A stretch of DNA of 64,000 bases from Acidobacteriota bacterium (lineage in GTDB: Bacteria > Acidobacteriota > Vicinamibacteria > Vicinamibacterales > CAVVIG01): contig JAFDVO010000004.1 in NCBI GenBank assembly GCA_018268955.1, positions 1 to 64,000 on the forward strand. The letters are read 5' to 3'. Position 1 is the first letter of the stretch; each line of letters starts with the position of its first letter. The position numbers and the translations under genes are program-made. Shown here piece by piece: positions 47,006 to 58,476 of this stretch. The notes below the pieces were generated by a model. It had not been told where the DNA came from. It did no database searches and saw only the letters and a program-made list of their open reading frames with translations.

Positions 47006-50000
47006 CTAGCCGACGCGTTCGAGGAACCAGCTCGACTCGCCAGCCCCCTTCATCACCCGAATGCAGCCAGGCAGCCGCTCGGTCAATTCGGTGCGGTGGC
47101 TGATGACCCCGATCAGCCGGGAGCCATCCTGCCGCAGCGCCTCCATCGCATCGGTGACCTCCGCGAGCGCATCGGTGTCGAGCGTGCCGAACCCCTCGTC
47201 GATGAAGAGGCTGTCCATCTGGAGGGCTCCGGAGGTCTTCAGCACTTCCTCGCTGAGCTGGAGCGCGAGGCAGAGCGAGGCCATGAAGGTTTCCCCTCCG
47301 CTCAGCGTCTCCGCCCGCCGGCGTTCGCCCGCGTTGTCGTGATCGACCACGAAGAAGTCCCCGTCCTGCCATTCGAGGGTGTAGCGGTTGGACATCTGCC
47401 TCAAGCGAACGGATGCCCCCTTCACCAGGTCGCGGAAAGCCTCCTCGAGCAGGTACTCCTGGAACGCGTTGCCCTGCAGGTCGGCCGCCATGCCGGCATG
47501 GAGCGCGAGGCGCCCCCGGATGTCCTCCTGCTCGCGGAGCAGGCGTATGCGGTGCTCGACCTGCGCCGCCAGCCGATCGCACTCGGCCGCGAGCGCGTCA
47601 TGCCTGCGCTCGGCCTCGCGCCAGCGCTCGAACGCGTCCGTGCACGCCCGTTCGGCCTCGGCGAGTTGCGCCGCCGATACGGTGCGACCCGCAAGCTGCG
47701 GCTCGACGACCACCAACCGTGCGAGCACCGCGCCGAGTTGCGCCTCGTGCGCCGCGATCCGACGCTCGCGCGTGGCCTGCCCCATCATATCGATCGCCGC
47801 AGCGTGGGCCGCTCGCGCGCTGGCGAACCCGCCCTCGGCCAGCGCGGCGTCCAGCGCGGCTCGTGCATCCGCACGTGAGCGCTCGGCGCTCCCGACCGCC
47901 TCCGTGGCCGCGGTGAGCCTGGCCTCGGCGGAGGCGACGGCGAGCTGGGCTGCCGCATGCTCCTCGCGTGCGGCGCGGACGGTCCGCTCGATCCGGTCGA
48001 CCTCGTCGGCAAGCTCGCGCCGCTCCTGCGCCGGATCGTCATGCGTCGTCACCGCCAGAATCCGGCTGCGCAGCACGTCCAGCTCCTCCCGCGCAGTCCG
48101 TTCGGTGTCCAGCAGATGCTGGAGTGCCTGCGTTCGGGAGGCATGGCCTGCCTCCGCGGACGTGAGGGTCACCTGTGCCGCGCCGAATGCGGACTCCGCC
48201 GCGTACAGTCGCGCGGCCGCCGTCTCCTGCAGGGCTCGCGAGGCGCGGAGTGCCTTCCGCCGCTCCTCGACGATGTCGCAGGCCGCCACCGCTCCGGCTC
48301 CGGCCGCCATGCCAGCGAGCGCGGCGACGATCGTGTCGAGCAGCTGCGCGCGCGCCACGCGTGCGTTGGCGACGGCCGCACCGGACAGCTCCATGGCCGC
48401 GCGCGCCGCCTCGATCCGGGCACGGGCCTCGGCACGTTGTTCAGCGGTACGCTGGAGGACCGCTCGCGCGTCCTTGGCCCTCGTCGAGGCGTTTGCGAGT
48501 GCCGCGACCAGGGCGTCGAGCTCGGGGACGGGTGGCACGTCCGGCAGCGCCGGAACCGGCTGCAGGCACACGGGACACGGTTCGCCAGCGTGCAGGTGCG
48601 CTCGCACGGCAGCCGCCTGGTTCCGTATCCGCGCGTCGTCGAGGGCTCGGCTCGCGACCTGCTCCTTGTCCACAGCGCTGGCATGCGCGCGCTCGGCCTC
48701 GACGACCGCTGTCTCGGACACGCGGCCTTGTGCCTCATGGGCCGCAAGTTCCGACAGGCATTGCGTGTGGCGCGCCTGCAGCCGCGACAGCTCCTCATCG
48801 AAGCCCCGCACCTGGGTCACCACGGTTGCGAGTTCCTCGATGCGGTCGTGCTCGGCTCGGTCATATCCGACCGCTACGAGCGCCTGTTCAGCGGCAGACC
48901 GTTCCGACGCCGCTCGCCCGGCCGCCTCGCGCGCGGCTGCAGCGCGTGTTGCGGCAGCCTCCAGCTGTCGGCGCGCATCCACGATGCGCTGCGCCGTCTC
49001 CAGGACCGACGTCGTCAGCACTGAGCGGCGTGCGAGGTCTCCTTTGATTTCATCGATGGCGGTCACCCGCTGCCTCAACACGGCGCAGCGTTCGCTCGAT
49101 GCGTCCGCGTTGGCCAGGGCCTGCTCCGCGCGCGACAACGACGTCCGTGCGGAGCTCACAGCCGCGGCGGCGTCCTCGCGTTCGCTGATCGCACGACCGT
49201 GTTGCGCGTCGCACTCGGCAACACGTTCGATGCGCGGCAGGACCGCCCCCGCCTTTCGCGCAGCGGCCAGTTCCGCGCGCATGGCCTGCACCGCCTCCGA
49301 CTCACGCTCGAGCCCGGCGCGCTGCTCCCGCAGCTGGTCCGCCTCCGCGGTCAGGGCGCGGCGGGCACGCACCTCCTTCACCTGCTCCTCCGCGGCTGCG
49401 CGGCGCTGCGCGAGGTCAGCGAGCGTCGCATGGACTGCGTCGCGCTCGTCGCAGCGCGACGCCCACGCCTCCGGTGTCGCGTCGACGAACGCCTGTAGCT
49501 GACCGTCGAGCCCTTTCAGCTCGCGCTCGAACGCACCGCGTCGGCGCTCGGCCTCCTCGCGCATGCGCGTGAAGACATCGTGTCGCAGCAAGTGCTGCAG
49601 GATGCTCCGCTGGTCCTTCGGGTCTGCTTTCAGGAAGCGGGCGAACTCCCCCTGGGGCAGGATCACCGTCTGCGTGAACGCGTCGAAGTCCAGGCCGAGC
49701 AGCCGCTCGATCGCCTCGTTGACCGGCTTCACGCCGTCGGCAAGGCTGCGCTCCGGACCGCTGGTCCGCTCGGCCAGCGTCGCCTGCGTCGTCAGGTTCT
49801 TCCGCCCGCGCCTGACGCGGCGTACCACGCGATAGGTTGCGCCGCGGACGGTGAAGTCCAGGCTCACGCTCATCGCATCGCGGCCATGCGCGATGAACTC
49901 GCCAATCCCCTGCTTGCCGATGCGGGGCACCTCTCCGTAGAGGGCAAACAGCATCGTGTCGAGGATGCTCGACTTGCCGGCCCCGGTCGGCCCGGCAATC

Positions 50001-50089
50001 GCGAACAGCGAGAGGCCACTGAAGTCCAGCGGCGCCTGCCGATCGCGATAGCAGGTGAAGCCCTCGGCTTCCAGACGCACCGGTCTCAT
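47006..50089 (-). CDS. sbcC: Exonuclease SbcC (Rad50-like)
   Basis: 1027-residue SMC-like ATPase. The N-terminal Walker A is AGPTGAGKSSI (about residue 35), the C-terminal end has TLSGGETFMASL and LFIDEGFGTLD, and the middle is a long coiled coil (about 190-880) interrupted by the zinc-hook motif CPVC near 500 (GEPCPVCLQPVP). With SbcD it forms the Mre11-Rad50-type nuclease that opens hairpins and processes DNA ends. The start at 50089 was chosen because RPVRLEAEGFTCYRD is the family N-terminus; codons before it overlap sbcD. One base separates it from the sbcD stop. It is the last gene of the nurA-herA-sbcD-sbcC operon. Confidence 0.95.
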   Translation of the reverse strand: MRPVRLEAEGFTCYRDRQAPLDFSGLSLFAIAGPTGAGKSSILDTMLFALYGEVPRIGKQGIGEFIAHGRDAMSVSLDFTVRGATYRVVRRVRRGRKNLTTQATLAERTSGPERSLADGVKPVNEAIERLLGLDFDAFTQTVILPQGEFARFLKADPKDQRSILQHLLRHDVFTRMREEAERRRGAFERELKGLDGQLQAFVDATPEAWASRCDERDAVHATLADLAQRRAAAEEQVKEVRARRALTAEADQLREQRAGLERESEAVQAMRAELAAARKAGAVLPRIERVAECDAQHGRAISEREDAAAAVSSARTSLSRAEQALANADASSERCAVLRQRVTAIDEIKGDLARRSVLTTSVLETAQRIVDARRQLEAAATRAAAAREAAGRAASERSAAEQALVAVGYDRAEHDRIEELATVVTQVRGFDEELSRLQARHTQCLSELAAHEAQGRVSETAVVEAERAHASAVDKEQVASRALDDARIRNQAAAVRAHLHAGEPCPVCLQPVPALPDVPPVPELDALVAALANASTRAKDARAVLQRTAEQRAEARARIEAARAAMELSGAAVANARVARAQLLDTIVAALAGMAAGAGAVAACDIVEERRKALRASRALQETAAARLYAAESAFGAAQVTLTSAEAGHASRTQALQHLLDTERTAREELDVLRSRILAVTTHDDPAQERRELADEVDRIERTVRAAREEHAAAQLAVASAEARLTAATEAVGSAERSRADARAALDAALAEGGFASARAAHAAAIDMMGQATRERRIAAHEAQLGAVLARLVVVEPQLAGRTVSAAQLAEAERACTDAFERWREAERRHDALAAECDRLAAQVEHRIRLLREQEDIRGRLALHAGMAADLQGNAFQEYLLEEAFRDLVKGASVRLRQMSNRYTLEWQDGDFFVVDHDNAGERRRAETLSGGETFMASLCLALQLSEEVLKTSGALQMDSLFIDEGFGTLDTDALAEVTDAMEALRQDGSRLIGVISHRTELTERLPGCIRVMKGAGESSWFLERVG

Positions 50090-50090
50090 C

Positions 50091-51251
50091 TCACTCCGTC
50101 TCCGCCGCGGCGTACAGCTCGTTGAACAGGGCGATGGTGTCGCCCCGTGGCTCCGCCTGATGGCGGCGCTGGTAGTAAGCCTTGAACCGTTCCACCGGAG
50201 CGTGCAGCGCGACGGCGCCAGGCTCCGGCCCCGCAGGAGAGAGCTCGGGCAGCACGGCATCCACGACCACGACGTTCGGCAGCATCTGGCGCACGCGCCT
50301 GTTCAGCTCCGGCATCGGTGCGTCCAGGGTGACCCGCACACGCAGGAAGCCGAAGGTCGACAGGCGGTCGACCGAAGCCTCGAGCTCGGGCCACGTGCCG
50401 ACGAAGTCCCCAAGGCTCGCGGCGCCCTCGTACGGCACCCGCTCGACACGGGGCGGCCTGCCGGGGATCACGTCGATCACCGCGAACGTCTTGTCGTCGG
50501 CGACCTCCCCGAAATCGAGCTGCATGGGCGACCCCGCGTACTCCGTGTGCGGGCCGGCTGCCTGCATGCGCTGCGGCCGGTGGATGTGGCCGAGCGCCAC
50601 GTACTGCGCGGTTGCGGGAATCGACTGCGGCGTTGCCGCCCAGTCATCTCCCAGCGTAACGACCCGCTCGGAGCCTGCGTGCTGGGCGCCAGACACATGC
50701 GTGTGGGCGATGACGAGGTTGACCGACGATGGCGTGAAGCCGTCCGCGAGATGCGCGAGGATCTGCCGCATCGCGTCGGCGTACTGCTGCCTCGCCAGCG
50801 TTTCGTCGTGCGCCAGCGTCAGCGCTTCGACGAGCCGTCCGACCGGCGCGAACGGGACAGCGGCCACGCAGGCGACCTCGCCGTTCTTTGCGCCCACCTG
50901 AATCAACCCGCCAGCGGAGCGCGCACGCGGCAGGCCGCGCGTCTGCACGCCGACGAACTCGGCCAGCAGCCCCCAGGCCTCGAGCCTGGCCGGGCTGTCG
51001 TGGTTCCCGGCAATGACGACGGAGGGCACACCGGCCTTCCCGAGCCGTCGGAAGAACTCGGTGACCAGCCGCTCGGCGTCCGCCGACGGCGACGCGCTGT
51101 CGAAGACATCCCCCGACATGAGCACGAGATCGATCGCCTCACGCTCGATGTAGCGGCCAAGGTGATCGAGGAGGCGCGCCAGTTCCTCGAGGCGGCTGCG
51201 GCTTTTCCAGACCCGTCCCGCGTGCCAGTCGGATGTGTGAACGATCCGCAT
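50091..51251 (-). CDS. sbcD: Exonuclease SbcD (Mre11-like)
   Basis: 386-residue metallophosphoesterase. Motifs in order: MRIVHTSDWHAG, SGDVFDSA, IAGNHDSPARL, AHTHVSGAQ and ALGHIHRPQ, all needed for the two manganese sites. A C-terminal capping/SbcC-contact region follows (about 290-386). It is the nuclease partner of SbcC. It begins one base after the herA stop and ends one base before the sbcC start, so the four genes are translationally linked. Confidence 0.95.
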   Translation of the reverse strand: MRIVHTSDWHAGRVWKSRSRLEELARLLDHLGRYIEREAIDLVLMSGDVFDSASPSADAERLVTEFFRRLGKAGVPSVVIAGNHDSPARLEAWGLLAEFVGVQTRGLPRARSAGGLIQVGAKNGEVACVAAVPFAPVGRLVEALTLAHDETLARQQYADAMRQILAHLADGFTPSSVNLVIAHTHVSGAQHAGSERVVTLGDDWAATPQSIPATAQYVALGHIHRPQRMQAAGPHTEYAGSPMQLDFGEVADDKTFAVIDVIPGRPPRVERVPYEGAASLGDFVGTWPELEASVDRLSTFGFLRVRVTLDAPMPELNRRVRQMLPNVVVVDAVLPELSPAGPEPGAVALHAPVERFKAYYQRRHQAEPRGDTIALFNELYAAAETE

Positions 51252-51252
51252 G

Positions 51253-52932
51253 CTACAGGCCCATGCGGGCGAACGGGTCGAGCCCGCCGCCCGCCCCTGC
51301 CGCCACTTCGCTCGCGCGCGTGGCCCATGCCGGGAATGGGAACCGCAGCAGGATGGCCATCGGAATCTCCGGCTGCGCGACGATCATCGAGCCTGGCCGC
51401 AGCAGCGTCGCACGCACCCGGCCCACGCGGGTCAGGAATCCGTACTCGCTTCGCTCCGACTCCGCCGCATCAAGCCGTCCAACCACCTTGATCGCGGCGT
51501 TGCCGACGATCCGGCGCTCCACTTCGCTCGCGGTCTGCTGCGCGCCGAAGAGCGAGACGCCGAGCGAGCGTCCACGCTCGGCGATGTCGAGAAGCAGCCC
51601 ATGGAGCGGACTCCATCCCTCGCGCGGGGCGTACTTGTTCAACTCGTCGAGCACGACGAACACCAGCGGCCGCGATCCGCCCTGCTGCTCCTTCTGGTCC
51701 ATCATCCGCTTCAGCAGCACGCCGACGACGAACAGCTGGGCGCTCGCATGGAGCGAGTGGATGTCGACAACCGTCACCTGCTGGGCCGACCAGTCGATGG
51801 TCCGGTTCCGCGCTTCGGAATGGCCGCTGACCAGGTGCCCCATCCGCTCGGACGCCGCGTGCAGCCGGCGGCGGAACGCGTCCTGGGTGCCCTGCGCGAC
51901 CGGCGCGCCCCGCATCATCAGGTCCAGCGACGGACCGTCGAGCAGATCGATGAGGTCACTGAACGACGTCAGCACCGTGCCGTCGACGGTCACGCTTGCG
52001 CTCGCCTGGTCCCCCTCGCGCGCAGCCTTCTCGAGCGCCTGCTCGACCCGCGTGATCACCAGGTGGATCTGCGCGCGTGCATCCTCGCCGTCCACGAAGA
52101 CGAACCGCAGCAACCGCTCGCGACAGAACTCCCTCATCGTCCAGAGGTACGGACGCACGCCCTCCTGGCGGCTGCCGGTGTCCGGCATCGGCGTGACGGT
52201 TCCCTTCCGTGCGGGTGCGAAGAACGCGACGCTCTGGAATGGGCCTGCAGGGAGGCCAAGCTTCTGGTATTCGGCGCGTGTGTCGGCGTCCAGCTTCGCG
52301 TTCGGCTTGTCGAGCCACAGCAGGTCCTCACCCTTCACGTTGAAGATGAGGGCCTTTGCGTTCGCGGCATCGAGCCCGAGCGCGTTCGAGTGGAACAGCG
52401 AGTAGAGGATGAACGTGGCGTACGAGGTCTTCGTGGCGACGCCGGACACGCCGCTGATGGAGGCGTGCGCGCCGCGCGTGCCGTCGAGGAATTCGAGGTT
52501 CGCGTGCACCGGCTCGCCCGTGCGCGTGAGCCCTATCGCGACGCTCCGTTCCATCCGGTCGAAATAAAGGGCCTTCCTGAACTCCTCGTTGCGCACGACG
52601 TGCACGGCTTCACCAGGCGTGGGCGGCACGAAGTACTCAGGCTCCACCCGCGTCACCTGCACGTGGGCCGCGTACGAGATGTCGGCCGGTAGCGTGCCGT
52701 CGGCCACGCGAAACGCGTCGGTGTCGAACTGGCTCCCCTCGAATCGCTTCCGGACGATGTCGACGATGCCGTAGAAGGTGACCGTGTCGCCGCTGCTGAG
52801 GTGTGAGCGCACGAGCACGAGATCGTCCAGTTGCAGGTGCTCGCCGTCGCGAACGCCGACCCAGAAGTCCAGCGGCGTCGCATCCTGCGAGCCGAGGACG
52901 AGCCCGACGACGGGCGATTGCGAATCAGACAT
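51253..52932 (-). CDS. herA: HerA-like DNA translocase (DUF87 ATPase)
   Basis: 559 residues. An N-terminal HAS-barrel-like region (about 1-130) precedes the ATPase core. The P-loop expected at about 161-170 reads GVSGVATKTS, not GxxGxGK[ST]: the Gly before Lys is Thr and the spacing is one residue longer. Walker B is normal (LVFVVLDELNKY). QQTASEVE and an arginine-finger-like region follow. HerA forms hexamers that feed DNA to NurA. The start at 52932 overlaps the nurA stop by 8 bp. The unusual P-loop may be a lineage trait, since such GISGVATKTS-like sequences seem to recur in HerA-like proteins (recollection, untested). Confidence 0.86.
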   Translation of the reverse strand: MSDSQSPVVGLVLGSQDATPLDFWVGVRDGEHLQLDDLVLVRSHLSSGDTVTFYGIVDIVRKRFEGSQFDTDAFRVADGTLPADISYAAHVQVTRVEPEYFVPPTPGEAVHVVRNEEFRKALYFDRMERSVAIGLTRTGEPVHANLEFLDGTRGAHASISGVSGVATKTSYATFILYSLFHSNALGLDAANAKALIFNVKGEDLLWLDKPNAKLDADTRAEYQKLGLPAGPFQSVAFFAPARKGTVTPMPDTGSRQEGVRPYLWTMREFCRERLLRFVFVDGEDARAQIHLVITRVEQALEKAAREGDQASASVTVDGTVLTSFSDLIDLLDGPSLDLMMRGAPVAQGTQDAFRRRLHAASERMGHLVSGHSEARNRTIDWSAQQVTVVDIHSLHASAQLFVVGVLLKRMMDQKEQQGGSRPLVFVVLDELNKYAPREGWSPLHGLLLDIAERGRSLGVSLFGAQQTASEVERRIVGNAAIKVVGRLDAAESERSEYGFLTRVGRVRATLLRPGSMIVAQPEIPMAILLRFPFPAWATRASEVAAGAGGGLDPFARMGL

Positions 52933-53920
52933 GTGAAAGCTCCCGGGCAAGCAGCGACGCGAGGCGACGGTGAATCAGGCGCGCATCACCGAGCCCGCGA
53001 CGGAGGTGCTGCTCGAGCGCACCGATCGGCACGAGGTTCTGCGGAGCCCGCGGGTCGCGACTGCGCGACGGGACGAACCTCGGCACGACTAGCGTCGTCA
53101 GGTCCGCCAGGCGAATCGCCTCGTCGCGCCCGACCGCTTCCGACACCTCGAGCCGCACGAGGCCGGTCATGTCCGACTCGACGACGAGACGCGCCGCGAG
53201 CCGAACGAACCACGAGTAGCGGGCGAACCGGCCGGCACTGCGGATGAGGAACACGGGAGTGCGCGTGCCGCACGGCAGCGACCGCAGGACAGGCAGGTGT
53301 TCAGGACCGAGATAGAGCTTGAACAGGCGCTTGACGAAGCCGACCACGCGGCCCGGCGTCTGCTCGCCGATGTTGAGCGGCCCGTCGGCGACGACGAGCA
53401 GGCGCTCGTCCTGCGACAGCCGCCGCGCAAATGCCTCCTCGGCGACGCGCATCTCGTGATGCAGCCCACGGAGTGGCGCATCTGGATCGTCCTCCGCCAC
53501 ACTGCGCGGGTCGTAGACGAGCCCCGGTGACACCGCGACCGATGCAGGCGGCATGTAGCCGGAGCCGAAAATCAGCAGGCGGCCTCGCTGTTCTTCGCCG
53601 AAGGTCGCTCGACCATCGCGACAGTGCACCACGCCGACGGCGTACGTGCCGAGCGCACCGTGCAGCGTCTGGCCGCCCCTGGACACGACGAGCCGAGCCT
53701 CCATGCGGCGCACGCCGTCAACCACCGCGAGGTCCGGCACCTCGCCGCCGCCTGCGGGTCGGACCGGGGACCACGCGCCCGCGTCCTGCTCCACAGACAC
53801 ATCGAGGTCGGCAGCCTCATCGTCCGCACCGAACTCGAGCGGGGTTTCGGATCCGTACTCGACGGCCCAGGGATCGATGCGGACGTCGAACTCGGCAAAA
53901 GGGGAAGCAGGGTGCGCCAC
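52925..53920 (-). CDS. nurA: NurA-like nuclease
   Basis: 331 residues. The two NurA metal-binding aspartates fit AVVDGVRR (Asp-68) and VVADGPLN (Asp-179); the C-terminal PQNLVPIGALEQHLRRGLGD is a highly typical NurA end. NurA is a 5'-3' exo- and endonuclease that resects DNA with HerA. Start is a GTG at 53920; no ATG suits. The coding end overlaps herA by 8 bp. This gene leads the operon and is divergent from the gene at 54069 by 148 bp; a CATAAT hexamer (53939-53944, minus) may be its -10. Confidence 0.85.
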   Translation of the reverse strand: MAHPASPFAEFDVRIDPWAVEYGSETPLEFGADDEAADLDVSVEQDAGAWSPVRPAGGGEVPDLAVVDGVRRMEARLVVSRGGQTLHGALGTYAVGVVHCRDGRATFGEEQRGRLLIFGSGYMPPASVAVSPGLVYDPRSVAEDDPDAPLRGLHHEMRVAEEAFARRLSQDERLLVVADGPLNIGEQTPGRVVGFVKRLFKLYLGPEHLPVLRSLPCGTRTPVFLIRSAGRFARYSWFVRLAARLVVESDMTGLVRLEVSEAVGRDEAIRLADLTTLVVPRFVPSRSRDPRAPQNLVPIGALEQHLRRGLGDARLIHRRLASLLARELSHV

Positions 53921-54512: not shown

Positions 54513-57404
54513 TCAGCCCCTTGCGGCCGCATCCGTCATGAACAGCTTTTCCACCGGAGTCGCGCCCACGCGGCTGGTGAGACGGAGCACGGCGACGGAG
54601 CGCTCACCGCCCGGGTCGGCCAGCCGCACGAGTTCGCTGAAGAGCACGAACACCGTGCTGGTGCCGACGCCGTTGCGGCCACTCGTCTGATCGAAGTCGT
54701 CGAAGTCCTTCATTGCGTTCCCGACGCGATGGAGCACCTGCTCGAGTGCGGCCGGGGTGGTGCGCGGGGCCGCGAGCGCTGCGAGCAACCCTCGGGTGGC
54801 GTCGATGAAGCCGGTCTCGATGTTATAGAGCGTCGTCAGCCGCTCGAGTTCAATTCGATCGAGCGTGACGCTCGCAGGCGCGCCAATGCCCGCCGGCAGG
54901 GTGACAGGAAACGTCCGCTCGGCATGCATCGGGAAGGACGCGGCTCCTTCGTTCCTGAACGCGAGGAACACCGGGTCGCTCGCGTATGCGAAGGCGACGT
55001 CGTGCAGTTCGCGGCTCCGCAGGTAGTTCGCCAGCAGCATCAGCCGCATCCGTCGCCGGAGCTGCAGTTCATCGGACTTCGACAGTGCCTGCATGGAGGC
55101 CAGTGCGGCAAGCGACTCGGGCGAGAACCGGACTTCGTAGCTGGCCTCCACCGGCCCGAACCCACCGTTCTGCGCACGCGGCAGCAGGGGCTCGAGTTGC
55201 GTGAGCGTCGCCCCATGGCGGTCCAGCCCGAGATCCTTCGCGAACGCGAGGTAGTCGTTCAACTCCGCGGCCGACGTGTCGGCGTCGGTGAACGCCAGTT
55301 CATAGCGCGCGGTGAACGCGTTCAGCGCGTCGACGACGTATTGGGCCGTCGGCGTGCGGGAGGCCAGCACACCGGCCGACTGCCCAAGCGCCTGCAGCAG
55401 GAAGTTGACGTGCGTTGATTCGCGGTCTCGCCGATTCTGCCGGTCGCGGTCGAGACCGAGCGAGACGGTCGTGTAGACGATGAGGCCCCGATCCGAGGGT
55501 ACCAGGCGCTGGCTGGCGTCGGTCACCACGCGGTCGATGCCTTCATAGTGGTAGTCCAGATGCCAGCCGAGGACGTTCACCTTGAAGGCGGCTGTCCGTG
55601 CGGTCCGGTGTGTCAGCGTGCCCTCGCGCAGCACTACCACGTCTGGACTGCTCATGAGGAGCGCCTGCTCAAAGTCCCCCCGTCCGACCTGTGTCATCAA
55701 CGTGCGGCCGAGTGGCGCCTCGAGGTTGATCAGCAGGTCGACGAGGGCATCAGTGGCGGCGGTGCGGCTGTACTCGGTGTGCAGCGCCACGGTGTACGCG
55801 CTGTTGGTGGCCTGCCGGAAGGCCTCGTAGAGCTGGTTCGAAAAGCGGTCAACGTTCTGCAGCACCTCGTGAATCTCCGCGAGCGCCTCCTTCAGGTCTG
55901 CCGAGGAGCCGAGCGTCCGGCCAACGAGCCGGCGCACGAAGTCGCCCACAGCGTCCGTGCTGCGTGCCTTCAGTTCGTCGACGGTATCGATTTTCGAGAG
56001 TTCGGCGATGAGGGCATCCAGGCCGAAGCGCTGCTTCGCCGTCCCAATCGCGCGCCGGATCTCTGCGTGGGCGCCGTCGGAGATCAGTGAGCGCACCTGC
56101 CGCGCGCGCTCCTGCAGGAGCGGGACACTCGGGACGGTCGTGCCGTCGACCACGACGCGACCGAGCAGGAACCCCAGCGGGTCACCGTCGGTGAGCTGGG
56201 CGAGCACGGTCCACCATTCGGGGGTCAGGTCATGCCGGAGCCGGTCGAGGCCGTCCTCCGTCAACGTGTCGAGCCGGTCCAGGAACGGCACGAGCTGGCC
56301 GAGCCGATCGAAGTAGCGGTCGAACAGCGTGACCGCCCGATCCCCAACGTCGTTGTAGCTGCGGACGATCGTGGATGCCGTCGACAGGAACGCCCGGAAC
56401 GGGTCCGCGCGCGCCAGCGCGTCGAACGTGTCGCCGACCACGGCTTCGATGTACTTCGTCGCCAGCCCGTCGATCGCCTTCTCGAGCGCCGAGGCATCCG
56501 AGAGTTCGAGGGCTTTGTCGAACAGCGTCAGGTAGCTCTTGGCATTCACGCCGAGGAGTGCGCCGAGGAACTCACGGCTGTTGACCGGCAGATCCAGGTC
56601 GTTGCGGAACCCCACGTTCACATCGGCGGCAACAGCGAGGTCCCGTGTCGCGCTCCGCTTCACTTGCACGCGCGCCCACCCGGGGCGATCCCCAGCCGTC
56701 ACGAGAATCGAAAAGCGTCCGGCCACCTTCGCCGTCAGCCCGATTCGCCCCGAGATGCTGAGGCCGTACTTCTCGGACAGTGCGATGCGCCCAAAATCCA
56801 GCGCCTTCGTTCCGGTGATTTCGTAGCCTGCCGCGGCCTGCGCTCCCAGCCGGAGATATCCGCCGTACTCGAGCGCGATCGCCTCGCCAGCTTCCGGGGC
56901 CTCCATCACCTGCTCCGGAAACCGCATCGTCGCGAAGAACCGCGGGACGACGACGCCGAGCGGCGCGGCGGGATCGAAGGCTCGCACGTACGCGAAGGCC
57001 GCATCGGCGCCCGCGTCCAGTTGCGTAGACGCCTTCAGGAAGGAGTAGGCGAACGGGGCCGTCGCCGTCGCATCGACGGCGGCCTTCACCTCGAAGCACA
57101 GCGTATCTCGCCCCTCGGCACCGACGCCGTACTGCGACAGCGTCGCACGGAGCGCCGGCGCCCCCGCGGCGAAGACCGGCGTCAGCGTGGCGGACGTCTT
57201 CGCGGTGACGCCGATCTTCACGCTGTCGGCCAGGCCCAGCGTTGCGCCGCCCGGTGTGGCGCCGCTGAACGACACGTCGAACACGGAGGTCGCCGCTGCA
57301 GGGATCGGCGCGTCGATCGAGAGGTCCCCCGTGTCGACGGCGCACTGGCTGGCGCCGTCGAGGAGGAACGGCAGGTTCTTCTTGTCGAGTGAGATGACGG
57401 GCAC
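54513..57404 (-). CDS. 963-residue protein, unrecognised
   Basis: No family was recognised. The first ~290 residues are beta-rich (VFDVSFSGATPGG, LTAKVAGRFSILVTAGDRPGW), about 300-600 is mostly helical (FDKALELSDASALEKAIDGL, TLFDRYFDRLGQLVPFLDRL), and the rest is mixed with several long charged helices. There is no signal peptide or membrane segment, so it should be cytoplasmic unless exported otherwise. Start is a GTG at 57404 preceded by GGAGG. A candidate promoter lies just upstream, after the sigma factor gene (57455). Size, domain change and operon partner suggest a defined complex rather than a random reading frame. Alternative guess: a contractile- or shell-type structural protein; this is unsupported. 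Confidence 0.85.
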   Translation of the reverse strand: MPVISLDKKNLPFLLDGASQCAVDTGDLSIDAPIPAAATSVFDVSFSGATPGGATLGLADSVKIGVTAKTSATLTPVFAAGAPALRATLSQYGVGAEGRDTLCFEVKAAVDATATAPFAYSFLKASTQLDAGADAAFAYVRAFDPAAPLGVVVPRFFATMRFPEQVMEAPEAGEAIALEYGGYLRLGAQAAAGYEITGTKALDFGRIALSEKYGLSISGRIGLTAKVAGRFSILVTAGDRPGWARVQVKRSATRDLAVAADVNVGFRNDLDLPVNSREFLGALLGVNAKSYLTLFDKALELSDASALEKAIDGLATKYIEAVVGDTFDALARADPFRAFLSTASTIVRSYNDVGDRAVTLFDRYFDRLGQLVPFLDRLDTLTEDGLDRLRHDLTPEWWTVLAQLTDGDPLGFLLGRVVVDGTTVPSVPLLQERARQVRSLISDGAHAEIRRAIGTAKQRFGLDALIAELSKIDTVDELKARSTDAVGDFVRRLVGRTLGSSADLKEALAEIHEVLQNVDRFSNQLYEAFRQATNSAYTVALHTEYSRTAATDALVDLLINLEAPLGRTLMTQVGRGDFEQALLMSSPDVVVLREGTLTHRTARTAAFKVNVLGWHLDYHYEGIDRVVTDASQRLVPSDRGLIVYTTVSLGLDRDRQNRRDRESTHVNFLLQALGQSAGVLASRTPTAQYVVDALNAFTARYELAFTDADTSAAELNDYLAFAKDLGLDRHGATLTQLEPLLPRAQNGGFGPVEASYEVRFSPESLAALASMQALSKSDELQLRRRMRLMLLANYLRSRELHDVAFAYASDPVFLAFRNEGAASFPMHAERTFPVTLPAGIGAPASVTLDRIELERLTTLYNIETGFIDATRGLLAALAAPRTTPAALEQVLHRVGNAMKDFDDFDQTSGRNGVGTSTVFVLFSELVRLADPGGERSVAVLRLTSRVGATPVEKLFMTDAAARG

Positions 57405-57430
57405 GCGCGCCTCCGGGTGTGTGAGGCGCT

Positions 57431-57458
57431 GTTATACACCTGTTCCCCGCCGCGTCAG
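57431..57458 (-). promoter_or_regulatory. Candidate promoter of the 963-aa gene
   Basis: On the minus strand CTGACG (57458-57453), 16 bp, then TATAAC (57436-57431). Transcription would start near 57424, about 20 bases before the GTG. The -35 overlaps the stop of the sigma gene. Confidence 0.45.
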
Positions 57459-58234
57459 ACGGCGCGGCTGAACCCGTTCACCGTGCCCCGTGCCCCGCTG
57501 ATCGGGCTGCCCGGCCCAAGGCCCTGCGCCTCGAGGTGCTGTCGCAGCGAACGCAGCAGCCGGTCGCACCGGCGATAGAGCACTTTGGGTGGCTCGCCGA
57601 GCAGGTGCGCAATGTCCGGCACGCGCCGGTCCTGGAGATACCGCACCTCCAGCAGCTGGCGATCCGGTTCCGGCAGCCTCGCAAGCAGTTCCTGAACCGC
57701 GCGCCAACGAAGGGCCTGCACTCGTGCGTGCTGCTGTGCGACGAGAGGGTCCTCGTCGCTGGCAGCCGGCATGTCGGCCAGGATCTCGTCGCTGACACGC
57801 CGCTTCGCGGGGCGACGTGCAAGCTGGTCGAGCAGCTGCCGGAGTTCGCGCACGGGTGGCGCACCTGGCCGCATCGCCAGCGTGCCGATCGCCTCGTCGG
57901 CGCTCAGGCCATCGCGGACGATCAAGCGCTCGAGTGCGACTGCCGCCGGGCCCCGGCGCGACGCCGCCGCCGACGGCCGCCACTTGCCCCAGACGTGATT
58001 CTTCCAGTCCTTGAGCAGGCGGTCCGCAACAACGGACAGGTAGGTCTTCAGCGAGCTCTGATGTTCGAAGCGCCCGAACAGCGCATAGTCGGTTTCGAGC
58101 AGCCTGAGATGGACACTCTGCGTGAAGTCCATCAGGTCGTCCGGCGTGAGCCCGCCGCGGCGACCGGCCCGCTCGAGCAGCCTGAAGAACAGGCGAAGCT
58201 CCTCGTCCCCTGGAGCGTGCGTGTCAGCAGCCAT
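57455..58234 (-). CDS. Sigma-70-like factor (two-domain, ECF-like)
   Basis: 259 residues. Region 2 is at about 10-80 (DDLMDFTQSVHLRLLETDY and KTYLSVVADRLLKDWKNHVW), and a region-4-like helix-turn-helix lies at about 200-255 (PEPDRQLLEVRYLQDRRVPDIAHLLGE then LYRRCDRLLRSLRQHL). The spacer between them (about 80-195) is longer than in ordinary ECF factors. No anti-sigma gene adjoins. The start at 58234 removes a low-quality N-terminal extension. The 963-aa gene lies 50 bp downstream on the same strand, so that protein might belong to its regulon or serve as its regulator. Confidence 0.75.
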   Translation of the reverse strand: MAADTHAPGDEELRLFFRLLERAGRRGGLTPDDLMDFTQSVHLRLLETDYALFGRFEHQSSLKTYLSVVADRLLKDWKNHVWGKWRPSAAASRRGPAAVALERLIVRDGLSADEAIGTLAMRPGAPPVRELRQLLDQLARRPAKRRVSDEILADMPAASDEDPLVAQQHARVQALRWRAVQELLARLPEPDRQLLEVRYLQDRRVPDIAHLLGEPPKVLYRRCDRLLRSLRQHLEAQGLGPGSPISGARGTVNGFSRAV

Positions 58235-58476
58235 GTGGATCGCTCCCTCCGCCGGTCCTGACGGAGCCGGCGCACACGACGACGGGCATGCGGAGCCGGG
58301 TTGGCGCCGGAGCTGTCGTTCATCGAGAGAGGCGGGAACCCGGGGTGAAAACTGGCACGGTGGCCGTGCGACGCACGACCGGCAGGGACCAACTTGCTTG
58401 CAGGGAAAACGCCCGCGTTGTCCGTCAGTAGGTGCAAGGGCGCCAGTTCTGGCAACCCTCAACCGGAGACCTGCTG

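Follow-up and report, generated by a model that had tools for sequence, protein, structure and literature searches.

A bacterial nurA-herA-sbcD-sbcC operon as a probable accessory DNA-end resection module

What does an operon that joins HerA-NurA to SbcCD do in a bacterium? The question is raised by the first 64,000 nucleotides (nt) of contig JAFDVO010000004.1 (assembly GCA_018268955.1; hereafter the window) from an Acidobacteriota bacterium of the order Vicinamibacterales, in which nurA, herA, sbcD and sbcC lie head to tail on the minus strand, from position 53920 to 47006. All four genes of the archaeal-type HerA-NurA-Mre11-Rad50 operon are co-located here as one operon, which recurs in relatives. 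We consider it probable that the operon specifies an accessory module for DNA-end resection whose members are co-inherited, a bacterial equivalent of the archaeal operon. This view rests on gene identities, intact motifs, tight coupling, cross-phylum co-inheritance and patchy distribution, each directly observed.

What NurA-HerA does in bacteria is a matter of dispute, in part because the organisms used to study it are Deinococcus and Thermus, for which no connection with SbcCD has been reported. An operon that recurs in Acidobacteriota, Chloroflexota, Actinomycetota and on cyanobacterial plasmids offers a natural system for the joint action of SbcCD and HerA-NurA. It also points to bacteria in which DNA breaks may be resected with neither RecBCD nor AddAB.

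Four tightly coupled genes with intact motifs

The first gene, nurA (52925..53920, minus strand), has a GTG start and a TGA stop and encodes an RNase H-fold NurA nuclease of 331 amino acids (aa). It overlaps by 8 nt (ATGTCTGA) with herA (51253..52932, minus strand; 559 aa, ATG start, TAG stop), which encodes a hexameric-type DNA translocase ATPase. A single base separates herA from sbcD (50091..51251, minus strand; Mre11-type nuclease, 386 aa) in the arrangement herA-TAG-C-ATG-sbcD, and again sbcD from sbcC (47006..50089, minus strand; Rad50-type ATPase with a zinc hook, 1027 aa) in the arrangement sbcD-TGA-G-ATG-sbcC. The 8-nt overlap and the two 1-base gaps thus confirm an earlier sequence-only reading, which had described four end-processing genes overlapping or one base apart. 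The start of herA is most likely the ATG at 52932, since a close relative starts at the equivalent position, and the TTG at 52950 given in the open reading frame (ORF) list is less favoured. Similarly, sbcC starts at 50089 and not at 50260, because the conserved N-terminus MRPVRLEAEGF begins there; the start in the ORF list is 57 codons too early, inside sbcD. A foreign base composition of the operon was considered and rejected: its GC content of 70%, compared with 67.7% for the window, is at the high end and not discordant.

Neither NurA nor HerA of the window was matched by Pfam or NCBIfam models, and the Pfam NurA model found no match in the whole genome. A false NurA call was considered after this empty search, and was rejected by profile, structure and member-by-member tests. 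A profile of 11 sequences (the window NurA and ten relatives) matched Deinococcus radiodurans NurA (7f6d_H) at 2.7e-62 and the Thermotoga maritima NurA-like protein 1zup at 3.8e-15; as a single sequence, the window NurA matched D. radiodurans NurA at 3.7e-28. Its AlphaFold2 (AF2) model (predicted local distance difference test, pLDDT, 82) matched 7f6d_G at 7.9e-21 and archaeal NurA 2ygk at 4e-6, a predicted structure resembling the Deinococcus radiodurans, Thermotoga and Sulfolobus NurAs. Scanned singly, 9 of the 11 family members matched Pfam NurA, and the family alignment showed invariant D68-G-V-R-R, E161 and D179-G-P-L. A NurA nuclease with an RNase H fold therefore adjoins HerA.

The HerA profile matched D. 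radiodurans HerA (drHerA; 7f6d_B) at 1.7e-196, the window HerA as a single sequence did so at 1.5e-140, and its AF2 model matched 7wrw_A at 1.1e-57 with 46% identity. The P-loop SGVATKTS is invariant within the family and also present in drHerA, and the Walker B motif reads LDELNK. This unusual P-loop is not a sign of inactivation, because the same Lys and Thr (K175/T176) bind nucleotide in drHerA (PMC9960219). The window HerA is thus close to drHerA, with a nucleotide-binding P-loop and a Walker B motif.

SbcD scored above the NCBIfam cut-off (TIGR00619, 180 versus 77.65 bits) and carries all five phosphoesterase motifs (DWHAG, GDVFD, GNHD, HTH and GHIH); it is the only canonical SbcD of the window genome. 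SbcC scored 277 bits with TIGR00618, below the model cut-off, and above cut-off with Pfam AAA_23 and SbcC_Walker_B; its Walker A (GPTGAGKS), zinc hook (CPVC), signature (LSGGE) and Walker B (DEGFG) motifs are all present. The gene identities proposed from sequence alone were accordingly borne out by profiles, folds and motifs.

A cassette rare in its phylum and recurrent across phyla

Short peptide patterns taken from the window HerA were used to scan a single genome of each species, a procedure that favours close relatives, and 12 loci were obtained. SbcD came directly after HerA in all 11 loci with sufficient contig, and NurA was part of the cassette in 11 of 11 assessable loci (split over two frames in locus L038). 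A search of plasmid records gave four close matches, each with all four genes: an 11.85-Mb Nonomuraea record labelled plasmid, a Streptomyces linear plasmid, a Sphaerospermopsis conjugative plasmid and a Nostoc plasmid on which the copy runs across the start of the record. Two divergent plasmid copies (Chlorohelix and Aulosira, HerA 26% identity) also carry all four genes. Taking genome scan and plasmids together, SbcD adjoins HerA in 15/15 assessable close loci, genome G172 being the exception.

The four genes thus occur together in Acidobacteriota, Chloroflexota, Actinomycetota and Cyanobacteriota, where the search for the same order that the sequence-only reading had recommended was successful; NurA comes last in all three Actinomycetota loci and first in the others. 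Since gene order is kept across many genomes, chance clustering is ruled out. For Deinococcus-type HerA outside Deinococcota, the premise of that reading that bacteria usually keep SbcCD and HerA-NurA apart does not hold (15/15 linked, G172 excepted); it is also contradicted by the published nurA-hepA-sbcD-sbcC operon of Oceanithermus profundus (PMC5448004). Some record titles call for care. Locus L037, titled a Bifidobacterium breve metagenome-assembled genome, has the same operon, contig number, coordinates and length as G202, the genus mate of the window genome, and its title is evidently misassigned; the Alphaproteobacteria titles of L038 and L041 may also be wrong.

Within the phylum the cassette is scarce. 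A close HerA was found in 2/199 phylum genomes (the window genome and G172), and an SbcD above cut-off in 35/297. Among the family genomes, HerA of the window type occurred in 2 of 27, the window genome and its genus mate (88% identical), and the cassette SbcD in the same two (genus mate 76% identical), with one further weak match. The operon is therefore not housekeeping in phylum or family, so that the outcome which the sequence-only reading had named as refuting it, a common housekeeping order in the phylum, did not arise. The two carriers among the 27 family genomes belong to one genus, and the operon was probably gained by that genus, loss elsewhere being a less economical alternative. 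In both genus members it is syntenic, with one and the same DnaJ-domain gene upstream of it. Since a clear copy of this upstream gene was found only in the genus mate, it could not serve to define an empty site.

Co-inheritance of HerA, NurA and SbcD

When 16 cassettes were compared, the distances for HerA, NurA and SbcD correlated with one another at 0.90, 0.93 and 0.98, to which shared phylogeny and two divergent outgroups contribute; values as high were reached in 0/2000 permutations. In a tree with other Acidobacteriota SbcDs, the cassette SbcDs needed 3 label changes versus 11.4 in shuffles. Every carrier that could be checked has one canonical SbcD, that of the cassette (the L038 contig ends before SbcD).

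Could the four genes be two separate repair modules, neighbouring and co-transcribed but otherwise independent? SbcCD does occur elsewhere without HerA, HerA-NurA is found without SbcCD in loci L050-L052 and in a Marinitoga virus, and G172 has a solo HerA. The four genes are nevertheless linked across at least four phyla in two gene orders, which suggests selection for linkage, and we regard independence as very improbable.

The solo HerA of G172 (L049, 7491-9146) is of the cassette type and 57% identical; its 19-kb contig is without NurA or SbcCD, and the SbcCD of this genome lies on a different contig. It is possibly a decaying cassette.

A proposed model for DNA-end resection

On the simplest view, the operon would encode a single machine for resection, in which SbcCD recognises the ends and starts the process. 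By analogy with work on D. radiodurans and archaea, from which we infer the order of steps, SbcC-SbcD would recognise DNA ends, blocked and hairpin ones among them, and make the first cut. The HerA hexamer would next pump duplex into the NurA dimer, and the latter would degrade the 5′ strand to leave a 3′ tail for RecA. In D. radiodurans, HerA pumps duplex DNA into NurA and the complex resects DNA ends (5′) in vitro (PMC9960219), while in Sulfolobus HerA co-precipitates with Mre11 and Rad50 (PMC2288612).

The archaeal analogy drawn by the sequence-only reading is supported. In Sulfolobus, Pyrococcus and Thermococcus, the same four protein families form one operon and are proposed to act jointly in 5′ break resection. 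However, the window HerA model is only 14-15% identical to archaeal HerA structures, and its partners are of the SbcC/SbcD type. Also, the window cassette is accessory and patchy, whereas herA and nurA are reported to be essential in Sulfolobus islandicus (PMC4351679). D. radiodurans NurA and HerA are direct homologues (HerA 46%, NurA about 30% identical, same P-loop), but are published as a NurA-HerA pair, to which the window operon adds SbcD and SbcC; a 2026 paper states that D. radiodurans is without Mre11-Rad50. O. profundus, likened by gene order, has the same four-gene architecture in a bacterium, and its operon was read as a local recruitment of SbcCD (PMC5448004). Cross-phylum recurrence argues for an older, travelling cassette rather than local recruitment. 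The bacterial four-gene order was already known from O. profundus (PMC5448004), and its recurrence across phyla and on plasmids may be new; no description of the cassette across phyla or on plasmids was found in the literature, subscription papers being mostly outside this search.

Several observations weigh against such a resection module. The distance correlation partly reflects the shared phylogeny and outgroups mentioned above. Four cassette-type SbcDs (G125, G059, G172 and G008) are without adjoining HerA-NurA, so that the partnership is not obligatory and can dissolve; one of the four, from a member of the order to which the window genome belongs, branches within the cassette SbcDs. Loss of nurA and herA makes D. 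radiodurans about 10-fold more resistant to ultraviolet (UV) light and mitomycin C (PMC9960219). Because deletion improves survival, a simple repair role is disputed, and the phenotype warns that the biological role of NurA-HerA may be regulatory. Finally, the window host already has AddAB/AdnAB-type systems: PF12705 nucleases (AddB/AdnAB kind) were found in 27/27 family genomes, that of the window included. In this lineage the module would probably act beside AddAB/AdnAB-type enzymes.

PF12705 nucleases were likewise present in the Acidobacteriota, Actinomycetota and ‘Alphaproteobacteria’ carriers. Among the six Chloroflexota carrier bins, in all of which the cassette holds the sole canonical SbcD, five showed none and one a marginal match; this absence is provisional, since the bins may be incomplete. 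The cassette may be the main resection machine in those Chloroflexota bins seemingly without AddAB-type nucleases.

Defence and DNA transfer as possible alternative roles

A defence cassette would work otherwise: when phage or plasmid DNA enters the cell, SbcCD would detect its ends or palindromes and HerA-NurA would destroy it. The patchy, cross-phylum distribution fits this idea, as does carriage by Streptomyces, Sphaerospermopsis and Nostoc plasmids and, in divergent form, by those of Chlorohelix and Aulosira. The Streptomyces plasmid copy (L055, 1-9334) adjoins DUF2397 and TIGR02678 to TIGR02680 genes, a set that we take to be Wadjet, and an ImmA/IrrE peptidase gene. The Chlorohelix copy (L058) adjoins TIR, kinase and HEPN genes, and is preceded by an ImmA/IrrE gene. 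Related HerA hexamers, whose structures were matched by our HerA model, act in Sir2-HerA and DUF4297-HerA defence, and TdpAB, an anti-phage system tied to phosphorothioate DNA, was a fold match of NurA. Divergent NurA-HerA pairs also lie beside Eco57I-type methylases in two Acidobacteriota genomes.

The chromosomal copies look different. Around them lie assorted housekeeping genes that form no coherent defence set: among 92 neighbouring proteins of the 12 loci no coherent defence enrichment was seen in the top families listed, where rare ones could be missed. The site is syntenic in both genus members, the cassette holds the only canonical SbcD of its carriers, and the operon is without a modification or immunity partner. 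PADLOC matches of the window proteins were weak and at a generic family level; SbcC matched mad3 and LmuB, and HerA matched mad8, which was judged to be generic ATPase homology, no other parts of these systems being found among the neighbours. Literature searches found no HerA-NurA-SbcCD defence system.

In Sir2-HerA, DUF4297-HerA and TdpAB, too, a hexameric ATPase of the HerA type is paired with another enzyme, and the NurA fold resembles a chain of TdpAB structure 8wfd. But the window HerA is only 10-16% identical to the HerAs of Sir2-HerA and DUF4297-HerA, and Pfam scans of the neighbours showed no Sir2 or DUF4297 partner in the operon, the partners being NurA, SbcD and SbcC. Nor did a TdpC/dnd-type thiolation gene appear among Pfam/NCBIfam matches of the ten window proteins around the operon, to which this search was confined. 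Parts of the wider NurA-HerA family may thus act in defence; for chromosomal copies of the operon such a role is unsupported, and we hold a defence cassette to be unlikely here. A dual machine for repair and defence, comparable to RecBCD, is as doubtful: in it SbcCD, as sensor of ends and hairpins, would license HerA-NurA against foreign or broken DNA, the cassette moving horizontally, being partly plasmid-borne and serving as main resector in some bacteria without AddAB.

The module might instead serve plasmid replication, recombination or natural DNA uptake. Several cassettes are on plasmids, and Thermus thermophilus HepA mutants are defective in competence and transjugation (DNA donation) and sensitive to UV and heat, although hepA is unlinked to sbcCD in that species (PMC5448004). 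The window copy and most relatives are, however, on contigs that resemble chromosomes, and no transfer genes were recognised around them; a role in DNA transfer or replication maintenance seems distinctly improbable beside the resection module that we favour.

Divergent NurA-HerA pairs and a neighbouring locus

The two methylase-associated loci (L050, 8488-14780, and L052, 2979-10589) have divergent NurA-HerA, with HerA about 30% identical to that of the window, directly after an Eco57I/N6 methylase of 1120-1160 aa and without SbcCD. Their methylases are 50% identical, and in L052 HerA is followed by another methylase, of the N6/N4 kind. From their gene content, both look like restriction-like systems made of a methylase plus NurA-HerA. 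Adjacent NurA-HerA pairs of divergent type also occur in viral contigs and Marinitoga camini virus 1 (L068, L069, L070, L071 and L060). A viral origin of the cassette was considered and rejected, as every HerA in the four viral contigs and the phage records is of the divergent type (23-29% identical).

Window positions 54513-58462 hold a gene for a 963-aa protein of no known family, preceded by a sigma-70-region-4-like gene. This locus is missing from the syntenic place in the genus mate, and full-length homologues of the protein (35-53%) are found in a few family members.

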